This document shows positions 11,790 to 38,443 of a DNA stretch of 38,443 nucleotides, in pieces. Source of the DNA: an uncultured Pseudomonadales bacterium. GTDB lineage: Bacteria; Pseudomonadota; Gammaproteobacteria; Pseudomonadales; Pseudohongiellaceae. Below the pieces are notes generated by a model. The model worked only from the letters and a program-made list of their open reading frames with translations, searched no databases and was not told where the DNA came from. Numbering within the stretch: the first letter of the stretch is position 1; the number at the start of each line of letters is the position of its first letter. The translations under genes were made by a program, and so were the position numbers. The DNA lies in assembly GCA_905478195.1 (NCBI GenBank), contig CAJQHM010000074.1:1-38443 (forward strand), in the 5' to 3' direction.

Positions 11790-13283
11790 ATGAAATTATC
11801 GCTTCAGCTCAAGCTAGGTCAGCAACTGACCATGACTCCTCAGCTGCAGCAAGCTATACGACTTCTGCAACTCTCAACCCTAGACCTTCAGCAAGAAATT
11901 CATCAGGCTCTAGAGTCCAACCCAATGTTGGAATTGATCGAGAATAGCGACGACGACGACAACCCCACCACTACCGACCTTAACGAACCTTCAGCGACCG
12001 ATACCAGCACCTCAACAAGAGACAATACCGAGCTGAATAGCGCCGATACCGACTGGCAGAACGAGATCCCCAATGATCTTGGCGTAGACACCCATTGGGA
12101 TGATATCTATCCCGGAACCTCATCCCAGTCGAATTCCTTCGATGGTGATTCATCAGACTTCGAATCACGCACCAGCGCCGAAGGCACTCTACAAGACCAT
12201 CTTCTGTGGCAGCTCAATCTGACTCATATATCCGAGAAAGATAATTCGATCGCACTCGCAATTATCGATGCTATCGATAGCAACGGCATGTTGACTGTGG
12301 ATTTGGATTCTATTCATAGTGGTTTCGACGAAGAGTCGGAAGTAGAACTGGATGAGATAGTCGCGGTTCTTCATCGCGTCCAACAATTTGACCCTATAGG
12401 AGTGGGCCATAGAGACCTGGCAGAGTGCCTTATGCTGCAACTCGCTCAGATCGAAAGCCCTGAACTGGAAAAAGCCGTACGCAACGCAAAGTTAGTAATC
12501 AGCGAACATATAGATCTACTCGGAAATCGAGATTATGCCCAGCTGATGCGACGCACAAAATTTAAGGAAGGTGAGCTTAGCGAAGCGATTACCATCATCG
12601 AAAGCTTAAACCCCAGACCAGGCGCCAGTATCTGTCCGCCGTCAACAAGTTACGTAGTACCCGATGTAATCGTGAGCAAAGACAGCTCATCAGGAAAGTG
12701 GAAGGTTGAACTAAATCCCGAGACGGCGCCAAAAATTCGAATCAATAGCGGCTATGCAGCACTCGTAAAACGTGCCGATACCAGCGACGATAACAATTAC
12801 TTGCGCGATAACTTGCAAGAGGCGAAATGGTTTATCAAGAGCCTGCAGAGCCGAAATGAGACTCTAATGAAAGTCTCCACACGAATTGTAGAGCATCAGA
12901 AAGGCTTTCTCGAGTATGGCGAAGAAGCAATGAAGCCGCTCGTGCTGCACGACATAGCCGAAGCCGTCAGCATGCATGAATCTACGATTTCCCGAGTCAC
13001 CACACAGAAATACATGCACACACCCAGAGGCATCTTCGAGCTCAAGTACTTTTTCTCAAGCCACGTATCCACCAAGGGCGGCGGAGAATGTTCGTCCACG
13101 GCGATTCGAGCTATCATTCGCAAGTTAGTCGCAGCAGAGAACACAAATAAGCCATTAAGCGACAGCAAGATTACCAATCTACTGGAAGAGAAAGGCATTA
13201 ATGTGGCTAGACGCACCATAGCAAAATACAGAGAATCACTCTCCATCCCTCCCTCCAATGAACGAAAGCGATTGGCGGGTTAG
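11790..13283 (+). CDS. rpoN: RNA polymerase sigma-54 factor
   Basis: RpoN directs polymerase to -24/-12 promoters and requires NtrC-type activators. The 497-residue product has the Gln/Leu-rich region I ([20 protein letters not shown]), an acidic linker (about 50-110, with DDDD), the core-binding and HTH regions, and the RpoN box [10 protein letters not shown] near the C-terminus (about 474-483). All regions look intact. The same window encodes an NtrC-type activator (CbrB-like) and a -24/-12 promoter at 38267-38280 that this sigma factor would serve. In E. coli and Pseudomonas hpf follows rpoN; here ptsN follows after 66 bases. Confidence 0.97.
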
Positions 13284-17226: not shown

Positions 17227-17244
17227 AACAATAATAAGAAGAGG
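17227..17244 (+). promoter_or_regulatory. A-R-N triplet run overlapping the symporter ribosome-binding site (putative Hfq/Crc site)
   Basis: The bases AACAATAATAAGAAGAGG are six consecutive A-R-N triplets (AAC AAT AAT AAG AAG AGG) and contain three overlapping perfect AANAANAA motifs (17227-17234, 17230-17237, 17233-17240). The last triplet is part of the Shine-Dalgarno for the ATG at 17251. In Pseudomonas, Hfq with Crc binds such A-rich motifs at the start of mRNAs for uptake and catabolic genes to block translation. That it acts so here is inference, supported by the CrcZ-like element at the right end of the window. Confidence 0.6.
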
Positions 17245-17250
17245 ATGCCC

Positions 17251-17547
17251 ATGTCTGACTCCAGCGCCAATTCCTACTGGAAGGCAAATATTCGATTAGT
17301 TCTTTCACTTCTCTTTGTATGGTTCTTCATATCTTTCGGTTGTGGAATTCTTTTCGTCGACGCCCTCGACACGATTCGCTTTGGTGGATTCAAACTCGGC
17401 TTCTGGATCGCCCAGCAAGGGTCGATCTTCGTCTTCGTGGCGCTGATCATTATTTACATTCGAGCGATGGACAAGCTAGACGACAAATACAACCTTGACT
17501 CCTCCAGCGAGAAAGACTCGGCAGCATCGCAGGAGAGTTCAAAATGA
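17251..17547 (+). CDS. Small subunit of sodium/substrate symporter (DUF4212)
   Basis: The 98-residue product has two membrane helices (about 12-34 with VLSLLFVWFFISFGCGILFV, and about 50-72 with GSIFVFVALIIIYIRAMD) and a charged Ser-rich tail. It matches the DUF4212 proteins that are always found directly upstream of an SSS-family permease and annotated as its small subunit. Two in-frame ATGs exist: 17245 and 17251. The second is preferred because GAGG lies six bases upstream of it, whereas it abuts the first. The stop overlaps the permease start (ATGA at 17544), so the two are probably translated together. An inverted repeat TATAGG-CGCT-CCTATA lies upstream at 17132-17147. Confidence 0.88.
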   Translation: MSDSSANSYWKANIRLVLSLLFVWFFISFGCGILFVDALDTIRFGGFKLGFWIAQQGSIFVFVALIIIYIRAMDKLDDKYNLDSSSEKDSAASQESSK

Positions 17548-19232
17548 GCGTACAAATTTGGACCTATCTTTTTGTCGCCCTTTCCTTCAGCCTTTACATC
17601 GGTATCGCGATCTGGTCTCGCGCCGGGTCAACTAAGGAATTCTATGTCGCCGGAGGCGGTGTACCACCATTGGCGAACGGTATGGCAACGGCTGCAGACT
17701 GGATGTCCGCCGCTTCATTTATCTCCATGGCTGGTCTCATCTCTTTTCTGGGCCGCGACGGAACCTTCTATCTTATGGGCTGGACCGGCGGCTACGTGCT
17801 GCTCGCCCTTCTGCTTGCACCCTATCTAAGAAAATTTGGAAAGTTTACGGTGCCGGACTTTATCGGTGACCGCTACTACTCTCAAACTGCCAGACTAATA
17901 GCCGTGTTCTGCGCGATCTCTGTCTCCTTCGTCTATGTATGCGGTCAGATGCAGGGCGCAGGCATCGTATTCTCTCGATTCCTCGAAGTGGATTTTACCA
18001 CCGGCGTGCTCATCGGTATGGCGATCGTTTTCTTCTATGCCGTGCTAGGTGGTATGAAAGGCATTACCTACACACAGGTAGCACAATACTGCGTGCTTAT
18101 CTTCGCCTTCATGGTACCGGCGATATTCATCTCAATTATGATGACCGATCAACCCATTCCACAGATCGGGTTCGGCTCTGAATTGACAGAGGCTTATGGC
18201 GGTGGCTATCTGCTGGACAGGTTGGATGGACTTAGCGAGCAGCTAGGCTTCGCGACCTACACCGAGGGTCAGCGCAGCACTCAAGACGTGTTTTTTATTA
18301 CCGCGGCACTGATGTTTGGTACTGCCGGACTGCCCCACGTCATTATTCGCTTCTTCACCGTTCCCAATGTTAGAGACGCGCGTAAGTCCGCAGGTTATGC
18401 CCTGGTGTTTATCGCTATTCTCTATACGACTGCTCCCGCTGTTGCAGCCTTCGCTCGCACTAACCTCATCAATACGGTCAGCAACGCAGAATACGAAATG
18501 GTTCCGGAATGGTTCAGCAAATGGGAGAACACCGGACTGATCACCTTCGACGACAAGAACAACGACGGCATCATTCAATATGTGGGCGATCCAGCGACTA
18601 ATGAATTAAATGTAAATAGAGACATCATGGTGTTGGCTAATCCCGAGATTGCGGAATTGCCTAACTGGGTGGTGGCCCTTGTGGTTGCAGGAGCCCTCGC
18701 CGCTGCGCTGTCCACGGCTGCCGGTCTGCTGTTGGTCATCTCGACCTCGGTAGCTCATGACATGATGAAACGGACATTCATGCCAAATATATCGGAGAAG
18801 CAGGAGCTCGCCTACGCGCGAATTTCGATCTTCGTCGCGGTGCTGATATCGGGTTACTACGGGATCAATGCGCCTGCCTATGTGGCACAGGTGGTCGCCT
18901 TTGCATTCGGATTAGCCGCTGCGTCTTTCTTTCCGGCCATAGTACTCGGTATTTTTCAGAAGCGTATGAACAAAGAAGGCGCCATTGCCGGAATGATCGT
19001 CGGCTTTACATTCACTGCGGCCTATATTATCTACTTCAAGATTATCAACCCGGCGGCTGACACTGCAGACAACTGGTTGTTTGGAATTTCACCGGAGGGA
19101 ATTGGTTCTCTTGGCACAGTGGCGAACCTGCTTGTAGCTCTGGCTGTAGCAAAATTCACACCGGAACCCCCAGCTGAGGTGCAAGAGATCGTCGAGAATA
19201 TTCGCCTACCAGGCGAGGCCATCCCTCGCTAA
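17544..19232 (+). CDS. Sodium:solute symporter (SSS family, acetate-permease-like large subunit)
   Basis: A 562-residue permease of the SSS/SLC5 family, of the type paired with DUF4212 subunits and distantly similar to acetate permease ActP. Visible family features are the N-terminal SxxEFYVAGGG region (STKEFYVAGGGVPP), TAADWMSAASFISMAG, the GLPHVIIRFFTVPN signature and AALSTAAGLLLVISTSVAHD. About thirteen membrane helices are expected. A periplasmic insertion around residues 318-360 holds DDKNNDGIIQYVGDP, a D-x-N-x-D-G acidic stretch that could bind calcium. The transported substrate cannot be told from sequence; a short carboxylate is a reasonable guess by family. Confidence 0.9.
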   Translation: MSVQIWTYLFVALSFSLYIGIAIWSRAGSTKEFYVAGGGVPPLANGMATAADWMSAASFISMAGLISFLGRDGTFYLMGWTGGYVLLALLLAPYLRKFGKFTVPDFIGDRYYSQTARLIAVFCAISVSFVYVCGQMQGAGIVFSRFLEVDFTTGVLIGMAIVFFYAVLGGMKGITYTQVAQYCVLIFAFMVPAIFISIMMTDQPIPQIGFGSELTEAYGGGYLLDRLDGLSEQLGFATYTEGQRSTQDVFFITAALMFGTAGLPHVIIRFFTVPNVRDARKSAGYALVFIAILYTTAPAVAAFARTNLINTVSNAEYEMVPEWFSKWENTGLITFDDKNNDGIIQYVGDPATNELNVNRDIMVLANPEIAELPNWVVALVVAGALAAALSTAAGLLLVISTSVAHDMMKRTFMPNISEKQELAYARISIFVAVLISGYYGINAPAYVAQVVAFAFGLAAASFFPAIVLGIFQKRMNKEGAIAGMIVGFTFTAAYIIYFKIINPAADTADNWLFGISPEGIGSLGTVANLLVALAVAKFTPEPPAEVQEIVENIRLPGEAIPR

Positions 19233-25930: not shown

Positions 25931-26173
25931 GACAATCTCCTTCTGGCTGAGCGCCTCACTTTATTGGCACTCCCGTCTATCAAGGGATACTAACGCCAAG
26001 CCCTTGATTAATAAATTATTTTCTATATAAATCGTAGAATCTGTCGACTTTGTCATACTTTATAGCGATAAACACGCTGTTTGTCAGTAAAATCAAGACT
26101 TAGGCCACTTATCGGCAGGATCTCAATACATTTCATCTCAGCAGCTTAATCCGGCGAGCAATAAGAATTCACA

Positions 26174-27529
26174 ATGACCAGCCAAGTATCACTGGACTCG
26201 AGAGCCTCAGAACGCCCGAAGCTCCTCATACTCATGCTACGCCCACTGGTAGCGCTTCTATTGAGCGCCCCTGTCATAGTCCTGCTACTTTCTATAGAGA
26301 CGACTTCCAGACCGGTTAGCGATCAGCAATTTAGCCCGCAGGAGCTTTCCAGAATAGAAAGCCTCCTACTGGAGAGCACACCACAAACCCCTGGTAATGC
26401 GAGCATGCAGCAGCTGCAGTTCGATGCCGACGAGCTCAATCTATTGCTGCGCTATGCCGTCAACGTAATGAACCTCTCCTCACAGTGGGCGGCGACTACA
26501 CAACTGAACGAAAGTGCCATGGGCATGCAGCTGAGTCTGCGGCTGAGCCAAGGGCCCCTGCCCCTTTTCCTGAATGTCGAAGCCAACCTGCTTGAGCAGG
26601 ACAAGCAGCTCAAACTACAGGCATTGAAAATCGGAAGAATCCGAATACCGGATAGATTTTTACAATTTACCCTGCAACGCTTTCAGGCGAACCTGGCTGC
26701 TGGCAATCTCGCCTACACGGATTTCATCGAACTAATAAACAATGTAAAGAGCGTTAACCTGAGCCAAGACCATATGACCGTCGCCTTGCAATGGGACCCT
26801 AAGCTTATCGGGCGCATAGGCAATCATGCTCAGCAACTGTTTATCTCGGAGCAAGATCAACAGAGAATAATTGACTATTATCAGATCATCACCAATATCG
26901 CTGCGGCCGTGCCAATTGATATTCGAGCCGTTTCGATCAATGCATTTCTCGTTCCTCTTTTCGCAGCGGCAAGAGAAAAGTCACTAGGGGGCAGCGATCC
27001 AATAGCCGAAAACCGAACCGCGTTCCAGACACTCGCCATCTATCTGAACAAGGAATCAATAGGCCAGCTCATCGGTGATGAAACCGCAAGAGATATCCCG
27101 CCAGCGCCCTTTATCGAGGTCCGATTGCAGAGGCGCCAGGATCTCGCGCAGCATCTTGTTTCTATCGCCGCAATTACGGCTTCCGCCGGTGCTGACCTGG
27201 CGCAGATGTTGTCCACCACTAAGGAAGCCTACGATGCCCGTTATCGTTCCGGCTTCAGCTTCTCAGACCTCACGGCAAACAGTGTCGGCCTCGCTATGGC
27301 CCAACTCTCTACCCGTGACGAGAGAACCGCCAGGGCCATGCAAGAACGCCTCGCTAATCTAGGCAGTGAATCAGACTATATGCCGGAGGTTGGCAACAAT
27401 CGAGACGGCCTGTCTGAAAGCGCCTTCAATGCGATGTATACAGATAGCAGCAGCCCCGAGTACCAGCGGCGCATGGCAGAAATTCAGACCCTGATCAATA
27501 GCAAGCCTCTATTTGCCGGCCTGTTATAG
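26174..27529 (+). CDS. Membrane-anchored protein of unknown function
   Basis: I do not recognise this 451-residue protein. It has a short cytoplasmic N-terminus and one membrane helix (about 17-41, LLILMLRPLVALLLSAPVIV), then a large soluble part presumably in the periplasm. Residues 60-200 look like a lipid-binding-type beta region (MQQLQFDADELNLLLRYAVN; alternating hydrophobics in MGMQLSLRLSQGPLPLFLNV). The C-terminal half is helical and carries ATRDERTARAMQERLANLG-like charged segments. A single AANAANAA motif (26160-26167) overlaps its ribosome-binding region, but one such match is expected by chance. The 49-base gap to the DksA-like gene suggests co-transcription. Confidence 0.75.
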   Translation: MTSQVSLDSRASERPKLLILMLRPLVALLLSAPVIVLLLSIETTSRPVSDQQFSPQELSRIESLLLESTPQTPGNASMQQLQFDADELNLLLRYAVNVMNLSSQWAATTQLNESAMGMQLSLRLSQGPLPLFLNVEANLLEQDKQLKLQALKIGRIRIPDRFLQFTLQRFQANLAAGNLAYTDFIELINNVKSVNLSQDHMTVALQWDPKLIGRIGNHAQQLFISEQDQQRIIDYYQIITNIAAAVPIDIRAVSINAFLVPLFAAAREKSLGGSDPIAENRTAFQTLAIYLNKESIGQLIGDETARDIPPAPFIEVRLQRRQDLAQHLVSIAAITASAGADLAQMLSTTKEAYDARYRSGFSFSDLTANSVGLAMAQLSTRDERTARAMQERLANLGSESDYMPEVGNNRDGLSESAFNAMYTDSSSPEYQRRMAEIQTLINSKPLFAGLL

Positions 27530-31949: not shown

Positions 31950-32393
31950 ATGGCTAACACTCAAAACTTAGAAGCCCAACCGGTTCTAAAAAACTTCGTT
32001 CCGTACAAGCCGAAGAAGAACGAAGTGTACATGAACGAAAAGCAGCGCGAGCACTTCAAAACTATCTTGCTAGATTGGCGTAACCAGCTAATGCAGGAAG
32101 TCGATCGGACTGTGCATCATATGCAAGACGATGCCGCCAACTACCCTGATCCTGCAGATCGCGCCACCCAGGAAGAAGAGTTCAGCCTGGAGTTGCGTAC
32201 TCGTGATAGAGAACGCAAGCTTATCAAGAAGATAGACAGCACCATCGAACTCATCGCTCAAGATGACTATGGCTACTGCGAATCTTGCGGCATCGAAATA
32301 GGTATTCGCCGACTCGAAGCAAGACCCACGGCGAACAAGTGTATCGACTGCAAGACTCTTGATGAAATCAAAGAGAAGCAGCTAGGCAGTTAG
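31950..32393 (+). CDS. dksA: RNA polymerase-binding transcription factor DksA
   Basis: DksA inserts its coiled coil in the RNA polymerase secondary channel and, with ppGpp, alters rRNA and amino-acid promoter activity. The 147-residue protein has the N-terminal segment [15 protein letters not shown], the coiled coil with tip [12 protein letters not shown] (the DxxDxA acidic tip), and a C4 zinc finger ([10 protein letters not shown] ... ANKCIDCK). Its order with gluQ and the following cbr genes is the Pseudomonas order. Confidence 0.97.
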
Positions 32394-32530: not shown

Positions 32531-33448
32531 ATGCAAAACCCAACAGACACCCAGAACCCGTCGAAGTTAGCTTCAGGCTATATAGGCCGCTTTGCTCCGT
32601 CGCCAACCGGCCCCCTGCATTTCGGCTCACTGGTTGCCGCCCTTGCCAGCTTTCTGGATGCCCGCGCCAACAATGGCAAGTGGCTCATGCGACTAGAAGA
32701 CCTGGATCCACCCAGAGAACCACAGGGTAGCGCCCAGTTGATTCTGCAACAGTTGCTGGATCTCGGGCTAAGCTGGGATGGCGAAGTGCTTTATCAGAGT
32801 TCACGCCTGGATGCCTACGAAGAAGTCTTGCAACAGCTACAGGACAAAAGGCTTGCCTACCCCTGCAACTGTACTCGTCCCCAGATTAAAGCCATGGGCA
32901 ATGTCTACGATGGCTCCTGTAGGACTAGAATCTCAGCACCGGCAAAACCCTATGCACTGCGCGTAAAGATCGAGGCCATAGAATTAGGCTTTGACGATGC
33001 CATACAGGGGTGCTTCGTCCAACAACTCGCAACCCAGCTCGGCGATTTCGTGGTCCGTCGCAAGGACGAACTCTTCGCCTACCAATTGGCGGTAGTGGTC
33101 GATGATGAATTTCAGAATGTTTCACACGTTGTACGCGGATGGGACCTGCTCGACTCAACACCGAGGCAGATCTATCTTCAGCAGCTCCTCAACTACAGAC
33201 CCATGCATTATGCGCATATCCCGATTGTGGTTGACGAGCTGGGGCAGAAACTGAGCAAGCAGGCTTTCGCGAGTTCTATTAGAACCGACAAGGCAACAGA
33301 GCTAATTTTTCAGGGGCTAAAATTTCTCGGCCAATCGCCTGTTGACGAGATTAAAAAAGAGAGCCCGGAGTCACAATTGCAATGGGCCATAGAGAACTGG
33401 GACATACAGCGCGTCCCAAAAGTAGCGAAGCTGCCATTTATACTATGA
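32531..33448 (+). CDS. gluQ: Glutamyl-Q tRNA(Asp) synthetase
   Basis: GluQ (YadB) attaches glutamate to the queuosine base of tRNA-Asp rather than to the tRNA end. At 305 residues it is the truncated GluRS paralogue lacking the anticodon-binding domain. The class I signatures are present: IGRFAPSPTGPLHFGSLVAA (HIGH-type) and QKLSKQ (KMSKS-type). Cysteines in YPCNCTRPQ and YDGSCR form the zinc site. It follows dksA as in E. coli and Pseudomonas. Confidence 0.94.
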   Translation: MQNPTDTQNPSKLASGYIGRFAPSPTGPLHFGSLVAALASFLDARANNGKWLMRLEDLDPPREPQGSAQLILQQLLDLGLSWDGEVLYQSSRLDAYEEVLQQLQDKRLAYPCNCTRPQIKAMGNVYDGSCRTRISAPAKPYALRVKIEAIELGFDDAIQGCFVQQLATQLGDFVVRRKDELFAYQLAVVVDDEFQNVSHVVRGWDLLDSTPRQIYLQQLLNYRPMHYAHIPIVVDELGQKLSKQAFASSIRTDKATELIFQGLKFLGQSPVDEIKKESPESQLQWAIENWDIQRVPKVAKLPFIL

Positions 33449-33539: not shown

Positions 33540-33716
33540 GTGTATATACCCCGATCGATCTTAGTCCTTCTATTGATCGTATACCTGCTCTTCCTATTGA
33601 GCGCCGACTGGATCAATCAGGACAGCGGTGCCTGGTACCGTCCATTCATGGTTGGATTCCTGGTAGTCCTGATCGCTAGCTGGTCCCATCGGGAACAGGA
33701 TTCCGATGAATTTTGA
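33540..33716 (+). CDS. cbrX: Small membrane protein overlapping cbrA (CbrX-like)
   Basis: A 58-codon ORF starts with GTG, with AAGGA six bases upstream, and stops 11 bases inside cbrA, so translation is probably coupled. The product has two hydrophobic helices: SILVLLLIVYLLFLLSADW (about 6-24) and a second from RPFMVGFLVVLIASW to residue 49, with a charged tail (SHREQDSDEF). In Pseudomonas a small ORF called cbrX occupies the same place and is co-translated with cbrA. Assignment rests on position, size and topology rather than on a sequence match I can quote. Confidence 0.75.
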   Translation: MYIPRSILVLLLIVYLLFLLSADWINQDSGAWYRPFMVGFLVVLIASWSHREQDSDEF

Positions 33717-36627
33717 AATAAGCACTATTATTGCCTTGGGCAGTGGCTATCTTGCGCTTCTGTTCGGTATCGCCTTCGTAACAGAGCGCGGCTGGATTCC
33801 GATCAAGATCGTGCGCCACCCTATCGTCTATGTACTCTCCCTAGGAGTCTTCGCTAGTGTTTGGGCCTATTACACCTCGGTAGGCAACGCCCAGCGCGAT
33901 GGCTACGGCTATCTCGCCAGCTTCATCGGCATCTCGCTGGCATTCCTATTCTCACCCCTATTACTACGTCCATTATTAGCACTCACTCGCACCTATCAAC
34001 TAAGCTCCCTGGCCGATCTCATGGCGTTCCGTTATCGCACTCCCTGGGCGGGCACCTTAACCACACTGGTCATACTGATCGCAGTTACACCGCTTATTGC
34101 ACTGCAAATAAGAGCGGTATCCGATACTGCCTACCTATTGTCTCCAGAGTCTGCACAAGGCCTGCTAGCAATTGGATTCTGTGTGGTAATTACACTGTTC
34201 TCTATACTCTTCGGCACTTCCAGAAAGGCAGGACGCACACAATACGACGGCCTGGTCATGGCGATCGCCTTCGAATCCCTGGTGAAGCTGATTGCGTTTC
34301 TGGCGGTGGGTGTCTTCGCGATATACGGCGCCTTCGGCAGCCTCGATGAGCTCGATCTTTGGTTGCAAGATCAACCAGAACTGCTGGCCAGCCTGAAGAA
34401 CACAGACTACTTCTCCTCCTTCCATGTCATGGCACTGCTTTTCTTCACGGCAGCTATCGCGATGCCACACATGTTCTACGTAACCTTCAATGAGAACAAC
34501 GGACAGAGAGCGCTGTCTTTTGCAAGCTGGGGCTTACCCTTATATTTTCTCCTACTCAGCCTGCCGGTTCTGCCCATACTCTGGGCTGGATTGCAGTCTG
34601 GCAGCAACGTACAGGTAGAATACTTTCCTGTAGTGATCGGCGCGGCTTACGATATGCCGCTAATCAGCATGCTCGCCTATCTGGGTGGGCTCTCGGCCGC
34701 GAGCGGCCTGATTATCGTGATTACTCTAGCGCTTTCCAATATGTGCCTAAACCATCTGATACTGCCCATCTATCAGCCGAAAGCAAACGAAGACATCTAT
34801 CGCTGGCTACTATGGAAGCGCCGCCTTCTTATAACTGCAATCATATGGATGGGCTTCTTCTTTCACTATCTTCCAAGCCAACAAATAAGCATCGAGGTAA
34901 TCGGCATTGTCGCGTTCACTGCCTGTCTGCAGTTTATGCCAGGCATCGTCGCTATTCTCTATTGGCCAGAAGCCAACAAGAAAGGTTTCCTCTGGGGGCT
35001 TGCTACCGGCGTACTCACCTGGTTTCTATTCCTCATGTTGCCACTGCTCTCCGACTCTGGCCCACTCGCCCTGACCTCTATTAACTGGCGTGAGATAACG
35101 GCGCTCTCCCTCATCGGCAACTGTATTATATTTGTTACCGTCTCCATACTTAGCACTAGCAGCGACGAAGAAAGAAGCTCTGCAGATATCTGCACCCTCA
35201 ACACCATCAAGCGACGCAAACGCAGCGGCCTCGTTGCAAAATCAACCGATGACTTTATCAAGAGCCTAAGCAAACCCTTGGGAGAGAAAACGGCTGCGCG
35301 TGAAGTCGGACGTGCGCTCAAAGATCTAGACATCGGAGAAAAGGATCGCCGACCCTACGCCATGCAACAGCTCCGAGGGCGGCTGGAAGCGAACCTTTCT
35401 GGCCTGCTAGGCCCTTCTATTGCGAGAGAGATTATCGACTGCTACCTGCCCTACAGCATTGTCTCGCAACACGGCAGCTCCGATCTAAACGTTATCGAGA
35501 GTCGAATCGAAGCCTACCGCAGCAATCTATCAGGCATGGCAGCCGACCTCGATAACCTGCGGCGCTACCATCGCCAGATTCTATTAGACCTACCCTTAGG
35601 CGTGTGCTCTCTGAGTAGCGACAATGAGATCATTATGTGGAATCGCGCCATGGAACAGTTCACTAATTTAAACTATACCGATGTCGTCGGGTCTCAGGTA
35701 ATCGATCTTTCGGAGCCCTGGCTAAGCCTTATTACAAACTTCATCGATGACGACGTCATCCACTCCTATAAGTATGCCTTCGAACTAGACGGCCAGAAAA
35801 AAACTGTTAATCTGCATAAGGCACTCATCGAAAAAACCATGGATCCCGACTCGTCTCATGAAGGCGTAATTATTCTGCTGGAAGACATTACCGAAACCGA
35901 AATACTTGAGGCCGGGCTAACTCACAGCGAAAGACTCGCCTCTATCGGCAGACTAGCCGCCGGAGTAGCGCATGAGATCGGCAACCCAATTACCGGCATC
36001 GCCTGCCTCGCGCAAACGATTCGCGACGAATATGAAGACGAAGAATTACTTAATCTCGCCTCGCAAGTGATAGAGCAGACCGACCGCACATCGACGATAC
36101 TGCAGTCACTGGTCAACTTCGCCCATGCTGGCACGAATAAGACTCAATACGAGCGCGAGATAGTAAGCATTAGCGAATGCATGGCACAGGCACAGACCCT
36201 GGTTTCGCTGGATCGCAAGAGCAAGGAGCTGAACTTGCGCATCGAGTGTGATCCTGAAGCAAGAGTTCTCGGCGACTCACAGCGCCTATTGCAGGTATTG
36301 ATCAACCTAATCAACAACGCCCGTGATGCAAGCCAATCAAATGGCGAAGTCCTCTTGCGGACACAAGTAAAAGGCGAGATAGTCGAAATCGCCGTAATCG
36401 ACCAGGGAATAGGCATACCCCAGGCGATCAAAGATCGTGTCTTCGATCCATTTTTCACTACCAAAGAGGCGGGAGAAGGCACTGGACTGGGGCTTTCACT
36501 CGTTTTCAGCATAGTTGAAGACTTAGGGGGTGATATTGATATAATCAGCCCCGCAAAGGAAGGTGCAGGCGGTACACGGGTATTGCTGCGATTTACTTGC
36601 TACCATGGTGAACCTGCCGACAAGTGA
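33706..36627 (+). CDS. cbrA: Sensor histidine kinase with SLC5 transporter-like domain, CbrA type
   Basis: This 973-residue protein matches CbrA: residues 1 to about 490 form an SSS/SLC5 solute-symporter-like domain of about 13 helices; next comes a linker with a STAC-like region (about 520-590), a PAS domain (about 625-725), then the kinase. The phosphoacceptor is His756 in AAGVAHEIGNPITG; N-box NLINNARDAS (about 867-876); DQGIGIP; and GEGTGLGLSLVFS. In Pseudomonas CbrA/CbrB controls carbon-nitrogen balance, histidine use, and the Crc/CrcZ catabolite-repression system; the transporter part takes up histidine in P. fluorescens. The start ATG lies inside the end of the small upstream ORF. cbrB follows after 49 bases. 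Confidence 0.93.
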   Translation: MNFEISTIIALGSGYLALLFGIAFVTERGWIPIKIVRHPIVYVLSLGVFASVWAYYTSVGNAQRDGYGYLASFIGISLAFLFSPLLLRPLLALTRTYQLSSLADLMAFRYRTPWAGTLTTLVILIAVTPLIALQIRAVSDTAYLLSPESAQGLLAIGFCVVITLFSILFGTSRKAGRTQYDGLVMAIAFESLVKLIAFLAVGVFAIYGAFGSLDELDLWLQDQPELLASLKNTDYFSSFHVMALLFFTAAIAMPHMFYVTFNENNGQRALSFASWGLPLYFLLLSLPVLPILWAGLQSGSNVQVEYFPVVIGAAYDMPLISMLAYLGGLSAASGLIIVITLALSNMCLNHLILPIYQPKANEDIYRWLLWKRRLLITAIIWMGFFFHYLPSQQISIEVIGIVAFTACLQFMPGIVAILYWPEANKKGFLWGLATGVLTWFLFLMLPLLSDSGPLALTSINWREITALSLIGNCIIFVTVSILSTSSDEERSSADICTLNTIKRRKRSGLVAKSTDDFIKSLSKPLGEKTAAREVGRALKDLDIGEKDRRPYAMQQLRGRLEANLSGLLGPSIAREIIDCYLPYSIVSQHGSSDLNVIESRIEAYRSNLSGMAADLDNLRRYHRQILLDLPLGVCSLSSDNEIIMWNRAMEQFTNLNYTDVVGSQVIDLSEPWLSLITNFIDDDVIHSYKYAFELDGQKKTVNLHKALIEKTMDPDSSHEGVIILLEDITETEILEAGLTHSERLASIGRLAAGVAHEIGNPITGIACLAQTIRDEYEDEELLNLASQVIEQTDRTSTILQSLVNFAHAGTNKTQYEREIVSISECMAQAQTLVSLDRKSKELNLRIECDPEARVLGDSQRLLQVLINLINNARDASQSNGEVLLRTQVKGEIVEIAVIDQGIGIPQAIKDRVFDPFFTTKEAGEGTGLGLSLVFSIVEDLGGDIDIISPAKEGAGGTRVLLRFTCYHGEPADK

Positions 36628-36676: not shown

Positions 36677-38056
36677 ATGACAGCAATGAATCAAGTTCTA
36701 GTAGTAGAAGATGAAGTGGTAATTCGAACTGCGCTGAAGCGATTACTGGAACGCTACGAATACAAAGTAAGCGAAGCCGGAACCGTCAAAGAGTCACTAG
36801 ACAATTTTGACATGGACGACTTCGACGTAATTATCAGCGATTTGCGATTACCCGGCGCGCCAGGCACCGACCTAATCAAGGCGACCACGACCCCTGTTCT
36901 AATAATGACCAGCTACTCCAGTATTCGCTCCGCCATCGATTCGATGAAACTGGGCGCTGTCGATTACATTGCCAAACCTTTCGAACACAAGGAACTGATA
37001 GAGTCCGTTGCCAAAATAATTCGCGAACAGGCTAAAGCACCACGCCAGGAGAGAATAGGTTCTGAAGAATTCGAACCACCGGTTCATGGAATGATTGGTA
37101 GCTGTTCACAGATGATGGAATTGTTTAGACGCATCCGAAAAGTAGCGCAGACTAACTCAACCGTTCTTATTAACGGCGAATCGGGCACCGGCAAGGAATT
37201 AGTAGCAAGGGCGCTTCACAACTTGAGTAATCGCAACGCCCAGGAAATGATCTCCGTCAATTGTGCAGCGATTCCGGAAAACTTAATTGAATCAGAACTG
37301 TTCGGTCACGAGAAAGGTGCGTTCACCGGCGCAACCGCAACCAGAACCGGCTTAGTCGAGGCAGCAAATGGAAGCACCCTCTTCCTCGATGAAATTGGCG
37401 AACTTCCCCTAGAGGCACAGGCAAGACTATTAAGGGTGTTACAGGAGAGCGAAATTCGCAAGGTCGGCTCGGTGCAGTCGAAAAAAGTAGATGTACGCCT
37501 AGTCGTAGCAACCCATCGCGACCTGAAGCAACTGGTAGTAGATGGCCACTTCCGCGAGGATCTCTACTACCGCATCAATGTAATGACCCTGTTGTTACCG
37601 CCACTAAGAGAGCGCGGCGATGATATTCTCGAACTAGCAGAAGCCATCCTGCAGCGCACCTGTAAACGACTTAAGACGAAGATACTAAGCCTGAGCGACG
37701 GCGCCAAACGCGCCATAGCCAAATATCCCTGGCCTGGAAATGTCCGTGAGCTTGAAAACGCGATAGAGCGTGCCGTTGTGCTGGCCGAAGAAAAGGTAAT
37801 CGGTGAAGAGCTGCTAGCGATTGGTGACGAAGAAAAGCGAATAGTCGGGCAAGAAGCAGAATTACAGAATCAGCAAGCGAGCGCCGAACCCATTGAAGAG
37901 CTTTCTCTGGAAGATTACTTTCAGCGATTCGTGCTCGAACATCAAGAAATTATGAATGAAACCCAGCTCGCGAAGAAATTGGGAATAAGCCGCAAATGTC
38001 TGTGGGAACGTCGCCAGCGTTTTGGCATACCACGCAAAAAAAAGCAGGAAGCTTAG
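36677..38056 (+). CDS. cbrB: NtrC-family sigma-54-dependent response regulator, CbrB type
   Basis: The 459-residue protein has a receiver domain with phosphoacceptor Asp55 (VIISDLRLPG), an AAA+ domain with Walker A GESGTGKE (167-174), the sigma-54-contacting loop GAFTGA (214-219) and Walker B TLFLDEIGEL, and a C-terminal Fis-type helix-turn-helix (about 427-455, ETQLAKKLGISRKCLWERR). All residues needed for phosphorylation, ATP hydrolysis and sigma-54 contact are present, so it should be an active enhancer-binding activator for RpoN (11790-13283). Its leader (36628-36676) is A/T-rich and has no clear Shine-Dalgarno. By position and domains it is CbrB, and a predicted target promoter lies just downstream. 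Confidence 0.94.
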   Translation: MTAMNQVLVVEDEVVIRTALKRLLERYEYKVSEAGTVKESLDNFDMDDFDVIISDLRLPGAPGTDLIKATTTPVLIMTSYSSIRSAIDSMKLGAVDYIAKPFEHKELIESVAKIIREQAKAPRQERIGSEEFEPPVHGMIGSCSQMMELFRRIRKVAQTNSTVLINGESGTGKELVARALHNLSNRNAQEMISVNCAAIPENLIESELFGHEKGAFTGATATRTGLVEAANGSTLFLDEIGELPLEAQARLLRVLQESEIRKVGSVQSKKVDVRLVVATHRDLKQLVVDGHFREDLYYRINVMTLLLPPLRERGDDILELAEAILQRTCKRLKTKILSLSDGAKRAIAKYPWPGNVRELENAIERAVVLAEEKVIGEELLAIGDEEKRIVGQEAELQNQQASAEPIEELSLEDYFQRFVLEHQEIMNETQLAKKLGISRKCLWERRQRFGIPRKKKQEA

Positions 38057-38146
38057 CCCAATCACTCCCAAGCCGCAGCAGGCACATGACGCATTACTGC
38101 AGCTCCAAAACCAAGGCCTTTGACGGGTGATATGACGAAGGTTATT

Positions 38147-38192
38147 TGTTACCGCTACCCTACTACCCAAATATTAGGGAAAATCAGTAACA
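38147..38192 (+). promoter_or_regulatory. Putative CbrB upstream activator site (TGTTAC / GTAACA inverted pair)
   Basis: TGTTAC (38147-38152) and its exact inverted partner GTAACA (38187-38192) lie 34 bases apart, centred about 120 bases before the predicted start of the RNA below. From memory, CbrB sites in P. putida are described as TGTTAC-N14-GTAACA; the spacing here is 20 bases (two helical turns) longer, so both halves would stay on the same face of the DNA. Distance from the promoter is right for an enhancer. Confidence 0.55.
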
Positions 38193-38265
38193 GAAGTGGG
38201 TTTGCAGGAATGGAATACTACATCTTCAAACACTAACCACATGATATATATGCCTATTATCCACT

Positions 38266-38280
38266 TGGCACAGTAAATGC
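38266..38280 (+). promoter_or_regulatory. Sigma-54 (-24/-12) promoter
   Basis: TTGGCACAGTAAATGC at 38265-38280 matches the sigma-54 consensus: TTGGCAC for -24, and ATGCA (38277-38281) for -12, with exactly ten bases between the GG (38267-38268) and GC (38279-38280). Start of transcription is expected near 38292. It lies 209 bases after the cbrB stop, matching the place of the crcZ promoter in Pseudomonas. Confidence 0.8.
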
Positions 38281-38291
38281 AGATATACCGT

Positions 38292-38443
38292 CATAATAAT
38301 AACAATAAATAATAATAATAATTCTCAATAAAAACAAAAATAGCATTACTGAGTTATAAAACTAAGGTTAGTGCAATAAATAATAATAAGGTCGGGTTGT
38401 AGTTAATTTGGCATTTGCCATCGAGCTTCATGTTCACCACCTA
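38292..38443 (+). ncRNA. crcZ: CrcZ-like Hfq/Crc decoy small RNA, 5' part (cut by window end)
   Basis: From the predicted sigma-54 start the sequence has no ORF of note but is full of A-rich triplets. Block 1 (38293-38323) is nearly pure A-A-N triplets (AAT AAT AAC AAT AAA, then five AAT). Block 2 (38327-38340) holds AATAAAAA and AACAAAAA. Block 3 (38375-38389) holds two overlapping AATAATAA motifs. AANAANAA is the motif bound by Hfq/Crc in Pseudomonas, and CrcZ (about 400 nt) carries several copies to titrate the repressor. A small hairpin GGCA-TT-TGCC lies at 38410-38419. No terminator is seen before the window ends. Identity is inferred from position, promoter and motifs. Confidence 0.7.

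Follow-up and report, generated by a model that had tools for sequence, protein, structure and literature searches.

A putative CrcZ-type Hfq decoy RNA gene downstream of cbrB in an uncultured Pseudomonadales bacterium and its distribution across the order

The window, meaning the whole 38,443 nt stretch of DNA that was analysed, ends at the end of contig C74 in a genome that is 95.67% complete and divided into 141 contigs. Its last genes are dksA, gluQRS, cbrA and cbrB (Table 1), and cbrB is followed by 387 bp before the window stops inside the RNA gene described here. Contig C52 of the same genome, read on the minus strand, begins with 127 bases identical to the end of the window and past this overlap includes one more AAnAAnAA motif, a hairpin and then pcnB, giving the gene order dksA-gluQRS-cbrA-cbrB-RNA-pcnB with pcnB on the overlapping contig. 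The earlier note on this DNA had expected further A-rich motifs, a terminator and pcnB with folK in the bases that follow the window. One such motif, pcnB and a terminator-like hairpin with a weak T tract were located there, while the gene that follows pcnB seems to encode a nucleoside kinase, not folK.

The small cbrX-like ORF between gluQRS and cbrA was 34% identical to a 58 aa hypothetical protein encoded between the same two genes in Amphritea japonica, and WYRPF and a C-terminal DEF are common to both. The product of cbrA aligned over almost its whole length, with 42% identity, to the protein encoded at the same place in the gene order of Amphritea japonica. The SLC5 domain is the defining domain of Pseudomonas CbrA, and the N-terminal part of CbrA was not recognised by Pfam in either the window protein or that of Amphritea. 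In full-length matches to the CbrB of Pseudomonas and Stutzerimonas loci, the identity of the window CbrB was about 61-65%. The 25 best NCBIfam models listed included none specific to CbrA or CbrB, and cbrA and cbrB matched general kinase and NtrC/AtoC models below cut-off. The cbrX/cbrA overlap, 11 nt in the window, is given as 17 nt in Pseudomonas in the available text of a review (PMC8871633).

Table 1 Positions of the genes and predicted features in the window and on the overlapping contig C52 (locus L004)
Feature	Position	Strand	Details
rpoN (sigma-54)	11790-13283	+	TIGR02395, 493.8 bits, match 11817-13268
Putative Hfq target site	17227-17244	+	six ARN triplets, AACAATAATAAGAAGAGG, over ribosome site of symporter genes
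Sodium/solute symporter, small and large subunits	17245-19232	+	small 17245-17547, large 17544-19232; TIGR03647, TIGR03648 over cut-off
dksA	31950-32393		
gluQRS	32531-33448		
cbrX-like small ORF	33540-33716	+	58 codons, GTG start; overlaps cbrA
cbrA, sensor kinase	33706-36627	+	PAS, HisKA, HATPase detected
cbrB, sigma-54 activator/response regulator	36677-38056	+	last gene of window
Putative CbrB forward half-site TGTTAC (F1)	38147-38152	+	118 nt upstream of -24 element
Putative CbrB reverse half-site GTAACA (R2)	38187-38192	+	78 nt upstream of -24 element
-24/-12 (sigma-54) promoter	38265-38281	+	TTGGCACAGTAAATGCA; from sequence, aligned in 17 same-genus loci
5' part of putative CrcZ-type small RNA	38292-38443	+	start predicted; continues on L004 (contig C52) from 16384 down to 16305-16285
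A-rich block 1	38295-38321	+	six overlapping AAnAAnAA (starts 38295-38314); nearly invariant in genus
A-rich block 2	38327-38340	+	three AAnAAnAA (starts 38327-38333)
Conserved hairpin between A-rich blocks	38343-38374	+	GCATTAC...GTTAGTGC
A-rich block 3	38379-38389	+	two AAnAAnAA (starts 38379 and 38382)
Terminator-like hairpin	L004 16305-16285		GGGGGGTG-GTATT-CACCCCCC, 5-nt loop; predicted 3' end of unit
pcnB	L004 (contig C52) 16009-14639		456 codons

The -24/-12 element that had been reported after cbrB has the exact spacing claimed for it, with GG and GC 10 nt apart, and no other site in the 38.4 kb window matches TTGGCAC-N6-TGCA exactly. Nine sites matched with one or two mismatches, and the total of 10 compares with a shuffle mean of 10.96. 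A promoter followed by an AAN cluster was obtained in 1 of 5,000 shuffles of 800 bp. The half-sites TGTTAC and GTAACA of CbrB were defined in P. putida according to the available part of PMC6296734, and a putative copy of each lies upstream of the promoter. TGTTAC was located at -116 to -120 in all 18 same-genus loci with the promoter, the window's own included, and GTAACA at -76 to -80 was exact in 17 of the 18 (L020 has GTAACG), counts that leave aside loci lacking a promoter as well as L023, whose promoter escaped recognition. GTAAC near -79 was also present in many other families, and the additional GTAAC copy at about -100 (R1) that is common in other families is absent upstream of the window promoter. 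The half-sites were outside the argument of the earlier note and constitute an independent test.

The predicted RNA extends for about 252 nt, from a start near 38292 to the terminator-like hairpin, and no long reading frame was found in it. AAN triplets begin 30 nt from the start of the -24 element and, as described before, a run near the transcript start is followed by two further clusters. Eleven AAnAAnAA motifs are located in the 387 bp after cbrB, while dinucleotide shuffles had a mean of 0.83 and none of 5,000 reached eleven. A search for relatives returned 36 of 38 genomes, the window genome included, with a CbrB match at 1e-120. In an alignment of 17 loci of the genus, the promoter, A-rich block 1 (AATAACAATAAATAATAAnAATAA), the GCATTAC hairpin and the later A-rich blocks were conserved while the sequence upstream was more divergent. 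Absence of conservation in relatives had been put forward in the earlier note as grounds for rejection, and both the -24/-12 element and the A-rich blocks are conserved in the genus.

Folded alone, the RNA had a z of -2.68, a stability that three of 200 shuffles matched, and the predicted structure leaves the first A-rich blocks unpaired. In an alignment of 16 sequences, 14 of the 30 predicted pairs were changed on both sides, including six of the ten pairs of the terminator stem, although kinship among the aligned sequences inflates covariation tests of this sort. None of 500 letter shuffles reached 14 (mean 7.8) and slid partners gave 3-9, while the number of further pair types was no higher than in shuffles (30 against 32.0). 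The GCATTAC hairpin receives no support from covariation because its pairs hardly vary.

No Rfam family matched the window at the gathering threshold. Against the Rfam CrcZ model (RF01675) the RNA scored 12.5 bits (E 1.5) with a cut-off of 95 bits, a chance-level result that agrees with the earlier suggestion that similarity searches may miss it. The permissive Rfam matches, a weak full-length CrcZ alignment among them, were likewise at chance level. The CrcZ model was at or above cut-off in 14 of 293 genomes of the order, eleven with family code f21 and three with f2, and we infer from these scores that f21 is the Pseudomonas family. Scores were graded, from more than 300 bits in the best f21 copies through 101-111 (f2), 66-73 (f35) and 33-55 (f20) to 35-41 in f1/g15, the family of the window, and several of these matches lie directly after cbrB by coordinates. 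Nothing was returned at E 1 in the genus of the window in a run with strict filters. Weak matches below cut-off were also obtained in three of 14 control genomes, so that lone weak CrcZ scores prove little. A covariance model built from the genus reached, with strict filters, 10 of the 293 genomes of the order (eight of the window's family and two of f16) and thus fails to carry across families; applied to 52 chosen loci, it produced 52 matches that ranged from weak to strong, with E values of up to 1. The rule of a promoter plus AAN motifs, unlike this model, carries across families.

The distribution of this layout was examined in 121 regions downstream of cbrB, consisting of the window's own, 28 loci from the search for relatives (L027 was dropped as its cbrB is cut by a contig end) and 92 hand-picked loci from the best listed CbrB matches (239 of the 293 order genomes at 1e-115), three of whose places came from the search for relatives. 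Families in which CbrB matched less well (f13, f15, f18, f27, f40, f43 and f44, for example) lie outside the sample. A region passed if its first 800 nt included a GG-N10-GC element that agreed with 9 or more of 13 consensus letters and, at +26 to +70, two or more AAnAAnAA. Passes were recorded for 105 of the 121 hand-picked regions, 102 of which also had GTAAC at the CbrB position, and at least one region passed in 31 of the 33 family codes sampled. None of the 121 reverse complements passed, and neither did any but three of 2,420 shuffles (20 rounds of 121). A PcnB search placed pcnB on the same strand within about 1.5 kb downstream in 100 of the 121 regions. The wider distribution that the earlier note proposed is borne out for most of the sampled families of the order.

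Sixteen regions failed, including all six of f8, the only one of f10, L025, L026 and L028, and a group of six (L023, L029, L030, L105, L106 and L164) in which some failures are due to a contig end or to the strictness of the test. L025, L026 and L028 belong to three genomes of the window's own genus (G018, G020 and G021) in which pcnB is located directly 3' of cbrB with no such RNA there, and their CbrB had an identity of only 65-71%. In three f8 loci (L181, L182 and L183) the unit of promoter, AAN motifs and hairpin is not beside cbrB and still precedes pcnB.

Named genomes were scanned on GTDB contigs with the pattern TGTTAC-N34..38-GTAAC-N70..78-YTGGCAY-N6-TGC, which gave 81 matches in the 80 listed of at least 117 stretches. 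Among the matches listed, 77 of the 81 had AAnAAnAA starting at +27 to +47 and 65 had cbrB within 1.5 kb upstream. The four listed matches without AAN were one Pseudomonas locus at a stretch end and three MAGs (Chromatiales, Burkholderiaceae and Planctomycetaceae); the MAG matches, with neither AAN nor cbrB nearby, are probably due to chance. Listed matches outside the Pseudomonas family included Gilvimarinus, Cellvibrio, Dasania, Marinagarivorans, Marinobacter halodurans, Microbulbifer, Nitrincola, Aestuariicella and Marinimicrobium. A tandem pair of promoter-plus-AAN units after cbrB in Dasania sp. GY-MA-18 (L191:512-989) suggests that the RNA gene was duplicated locally. The gene order in Amphritea japonica is dksA-gluQRS-small ORF-cbrA-cbrB-570 bp-pcnB-folK, and TTGGCACAGACCCTGCT with A-rich blocks was read by eye in the gap between cbrB and pcnB. 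The Amphritea japonica region dksA-cbrAB-gap-pcnB-folK-panBC is located on a replicon of 94 kb that its record lists as a plasmid (L037, NZ_AP025762.1).

Outside the order, 229 genomes were drawn from the class, of which 25 matched the CbrB alignment at 1e-140 and 22 remained after removal of members of the order (the window genome, G044 and G059). A strong cbrA-like match was located upstream at 19 of these 22 CbrB-like loci, and at none of the 22 was pcnB found within 1.5 kb, nor a promoter leading into an AAN cluster. CbrAB-like pairs are therefore wider than the order while the AAN RNA is confined to the order in this sample. Four of the 22 loci (L319, L321, L323 and L325) featured a -24/-12-like element after cbrB with GTAAC at -55 to -79 and no AAN cluster, and these are perhaps CbrB-type promoters driving something else.

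The genome encodes an Hfq of 90 aa (TIGR02383, 97.6 bits) with Tyr25, a residue required for CrcZ binding in P. aeruginosa, and rpoN is located in the window. Of the 68 genomes of the order that were searched, 67 encode one or more proteins of the Crc/ExoA class, and a single one was found in the window genome (L068:1492-2256, on contig C10 of G000). The best solved relatives of this protein were the exodeoxyribonuclease PDB 2jc5 at 298 bits and then Crc 4jg3 at 257 bits, and it retains the catalytic QET, DWN and SDH. Catalytic residues were readable in 21 proteins from 30 loci; they were intact in ten (the window genome's own, eight from its family and one of f26) and changed in eleven, the Pseudomonas type included. 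In the complex of P. aeruginosa, RNA or Crc is bound by R140, E142, E193, R196, R229 and R230 as far as described in the available part of PMC6422490, and the corresponding residues of the window protein, read by eye, are K, E, V, E, A and K. Its basic patch is RKNKRE where the full form is RRKRRE, and four relatives in the genus have the full RRKRRE patch yet are nuclease-like. The earlier wording 'Hfq/Crc' calls for caution, since the only Crc-type protein found keeps the nuclease residues.

A run of ARN triplets over the ribosome site of the symporter genes is likely an Hfq target. Repression of amiE by P. aeruginosa Hfq via such an ARN stretch is reported in the available text of PMC4063720. 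AAnAAnAA was present at the start of the small symporter subunit in 17 of 22 family loci and missing in five, and as controls it was found at none of 22 large-subunit starts of the same loci, none of 17 cbrB starts and none of 14 pcnB starts. One of four loci of other families, which are outside the 22-locus count, had the motif at the symporter start. Within the window, 3 of 29 listed gene starts had AAnAAnAA within 32 nt. The other two of these starts are 1524 (region 1496-1524, before a DegS-like protease) and 26174 (region 26160-26174, before a 451 aa protein without a family match).

The gene order, the sigma-54 promoter with its CbrB half-sites, the conservation of the A-rich blocks and the covariation of several stems, that of the terminator-like hairpin among them, agree with the occurrence of Hfq and RpoN in the genome on one reading, in which the locus is very probably a small RNA gene, the positional counterpart of Pseudomonas crcZ, encoding a CrcZ-type decoy for Hfq. 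The suggestion that the window ends with the 5' half of a CrcZ equivalent is supported by the same sequence features. From them we infer transcription, control by CbrB, Hfq binding and target release. CsrB/RsmY-type RNAs likewise titrate an RNA-binding protein by repeated short motifs; these are GGA hairpin motifs for CsrA/RsmA under GacA control and not AAN repeats for Hfq. Like CrcZ of Pseudomonas, the window RNA follows cbrB and precedes pcnB, has a sigma-54 promoter preceded by CbrB half-sites at closely similar distances, and carries AAN blocks that begin some 30 nt from the start of the -24 element, with intervening hairpins and a terminator-like hairpin. It differs in being about 250 nt long, where CrcZ of PAO1 is 407 nt (PMC4063720, available text), in having fewer A-rich stretches and in being missed by the Rfam model; the Crc-type protein of the window genome, unlike that of Pseudomonas, is not degenerate. 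CrcY and CrcX of Pseudomonas are of the same RNA and promoter class and are extra copies elsewhere in the genome, whereas a covariance-model search with strict filters found one locus only in the window genome.

A different use of the same promoter would be a transcript that serves mainly as the pcnB leader; CbrB would then raise poly(A) polymerase when carbon is limiting, and the A-rich blocks would control pcnB in cis. The frequent position of pcnB downstream on the same strand, the three f8 genomes that keep the unit before pcnB and away from cbrB, and the weak T tract of the window genome are consistent with such a leader. We consider it unlikely, as the covarying hairpin closes the unit about 275 nt before pcnB, T tracts are longer in the relatives L010, L011 and L024, and among the matches listed there are Pseudomonas and Stutzerimonas units with neither cbrB nor pcnB found nearby. 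Pseudomonas crcZ is, moreover, a separate RNA.

The near letter-for-letter conservation in the genus of the 5' A-rich block together with GCATTACTGAGTT, which is beyond the needs of a decoy, could point instead to a small RNA that acts by base pairing with the help of Hfq, for which the A-rich blocks would be docking sites of the usual kind. Across families, however, the genus model finds little while the AAN repeats persist, and no other long unpaired conserved stretch was evident in the fold, making this reading quite improbable. An accidental A-rich intergenic stretch or an assembly artefact might be suspected as the window ends inside the RNA and the contigs were joined by a 127-base overlap. 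The promoter, half-sites and three A-rich blocks are nevertheless all within the window itself, the succession of cbrB, gap and pcnB is unbroken in many relatives and shuffles fail to reproduce the layout, so that the likelihood of chance or artefact is close to negligible.

As a decoy for Hfq, the RNA would act as follows. Under carbon limitation CbrA would activate CbrB, which would bind TGTTAC/GTAACA and, with RpoN, start the RNA at about 38292. The RNA would present unpaired AAN blocks between hairpins, filling the distal face of Hfq, and Hfq would be drawn off ARN runs on the ribosome sites of transport and catabolic mRNAs such as that of the symporter at 17245. The mRNAs freed of Hfq would then be translated. 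We would also propose, tentatively and at somewhat less than even chances, that the circuit from CbrAB to an Hfq decoy is ancestral to Pseudomonadales and arose before Crc became a dedicated co-repressor. In the family of the window the decoy RNA and the targets marked by ARN runs would then depend on Hfq alone or together with a forerunner of Crc that is still a nuclease, and Crc would have lost the nuclease residues later in other lineages of the order, that of Pseudomonas included.

CbrAB has been called unique to or exclusive of pseudomonads in a 2022 review and a 2018 paper (PMC8871633 and PMC6296734, available parts). The earlier remark that CrcZ is known only from Pseudomonas and Azotobacter is matched by the accessible text of PMC8871633, which describes the cbrA-cbrB-crcZ arrangement in these two genera only. 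Transcripts of cbrAB were reported in a marine community in the available part of PMC5073097. No open-literature paper on CrcZ in Cellvibrio or Marinobacter or on a 'CrcZ-like' RNA was found, and no report of CrcZ outside the Pseudomonas family was found among the papers listed in broader searches, including the accessible portions of PMC5073097, PMC5955585 and PMC9049629; subscription papers were mostly outside this scope and priority is not claimable.

The window element is one of many such elements in the order, and its chief interest is their distribution and the state of Crc. A simple search rule of CbrB half-sites, a -24/-12 element and AAN at about +30 detects such putative RNAs where Rfam fails. 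The occurrence of cbrB, the RNA and mostly pcnB together in nearly all of the sampled family codes, marine and polysaccharide-degrading genera included, opens the question of how Crc went from nuclease to co-repressor and suggests that the choice among carbon sources through titration of Hfq may be common to a large and ecologically important group.
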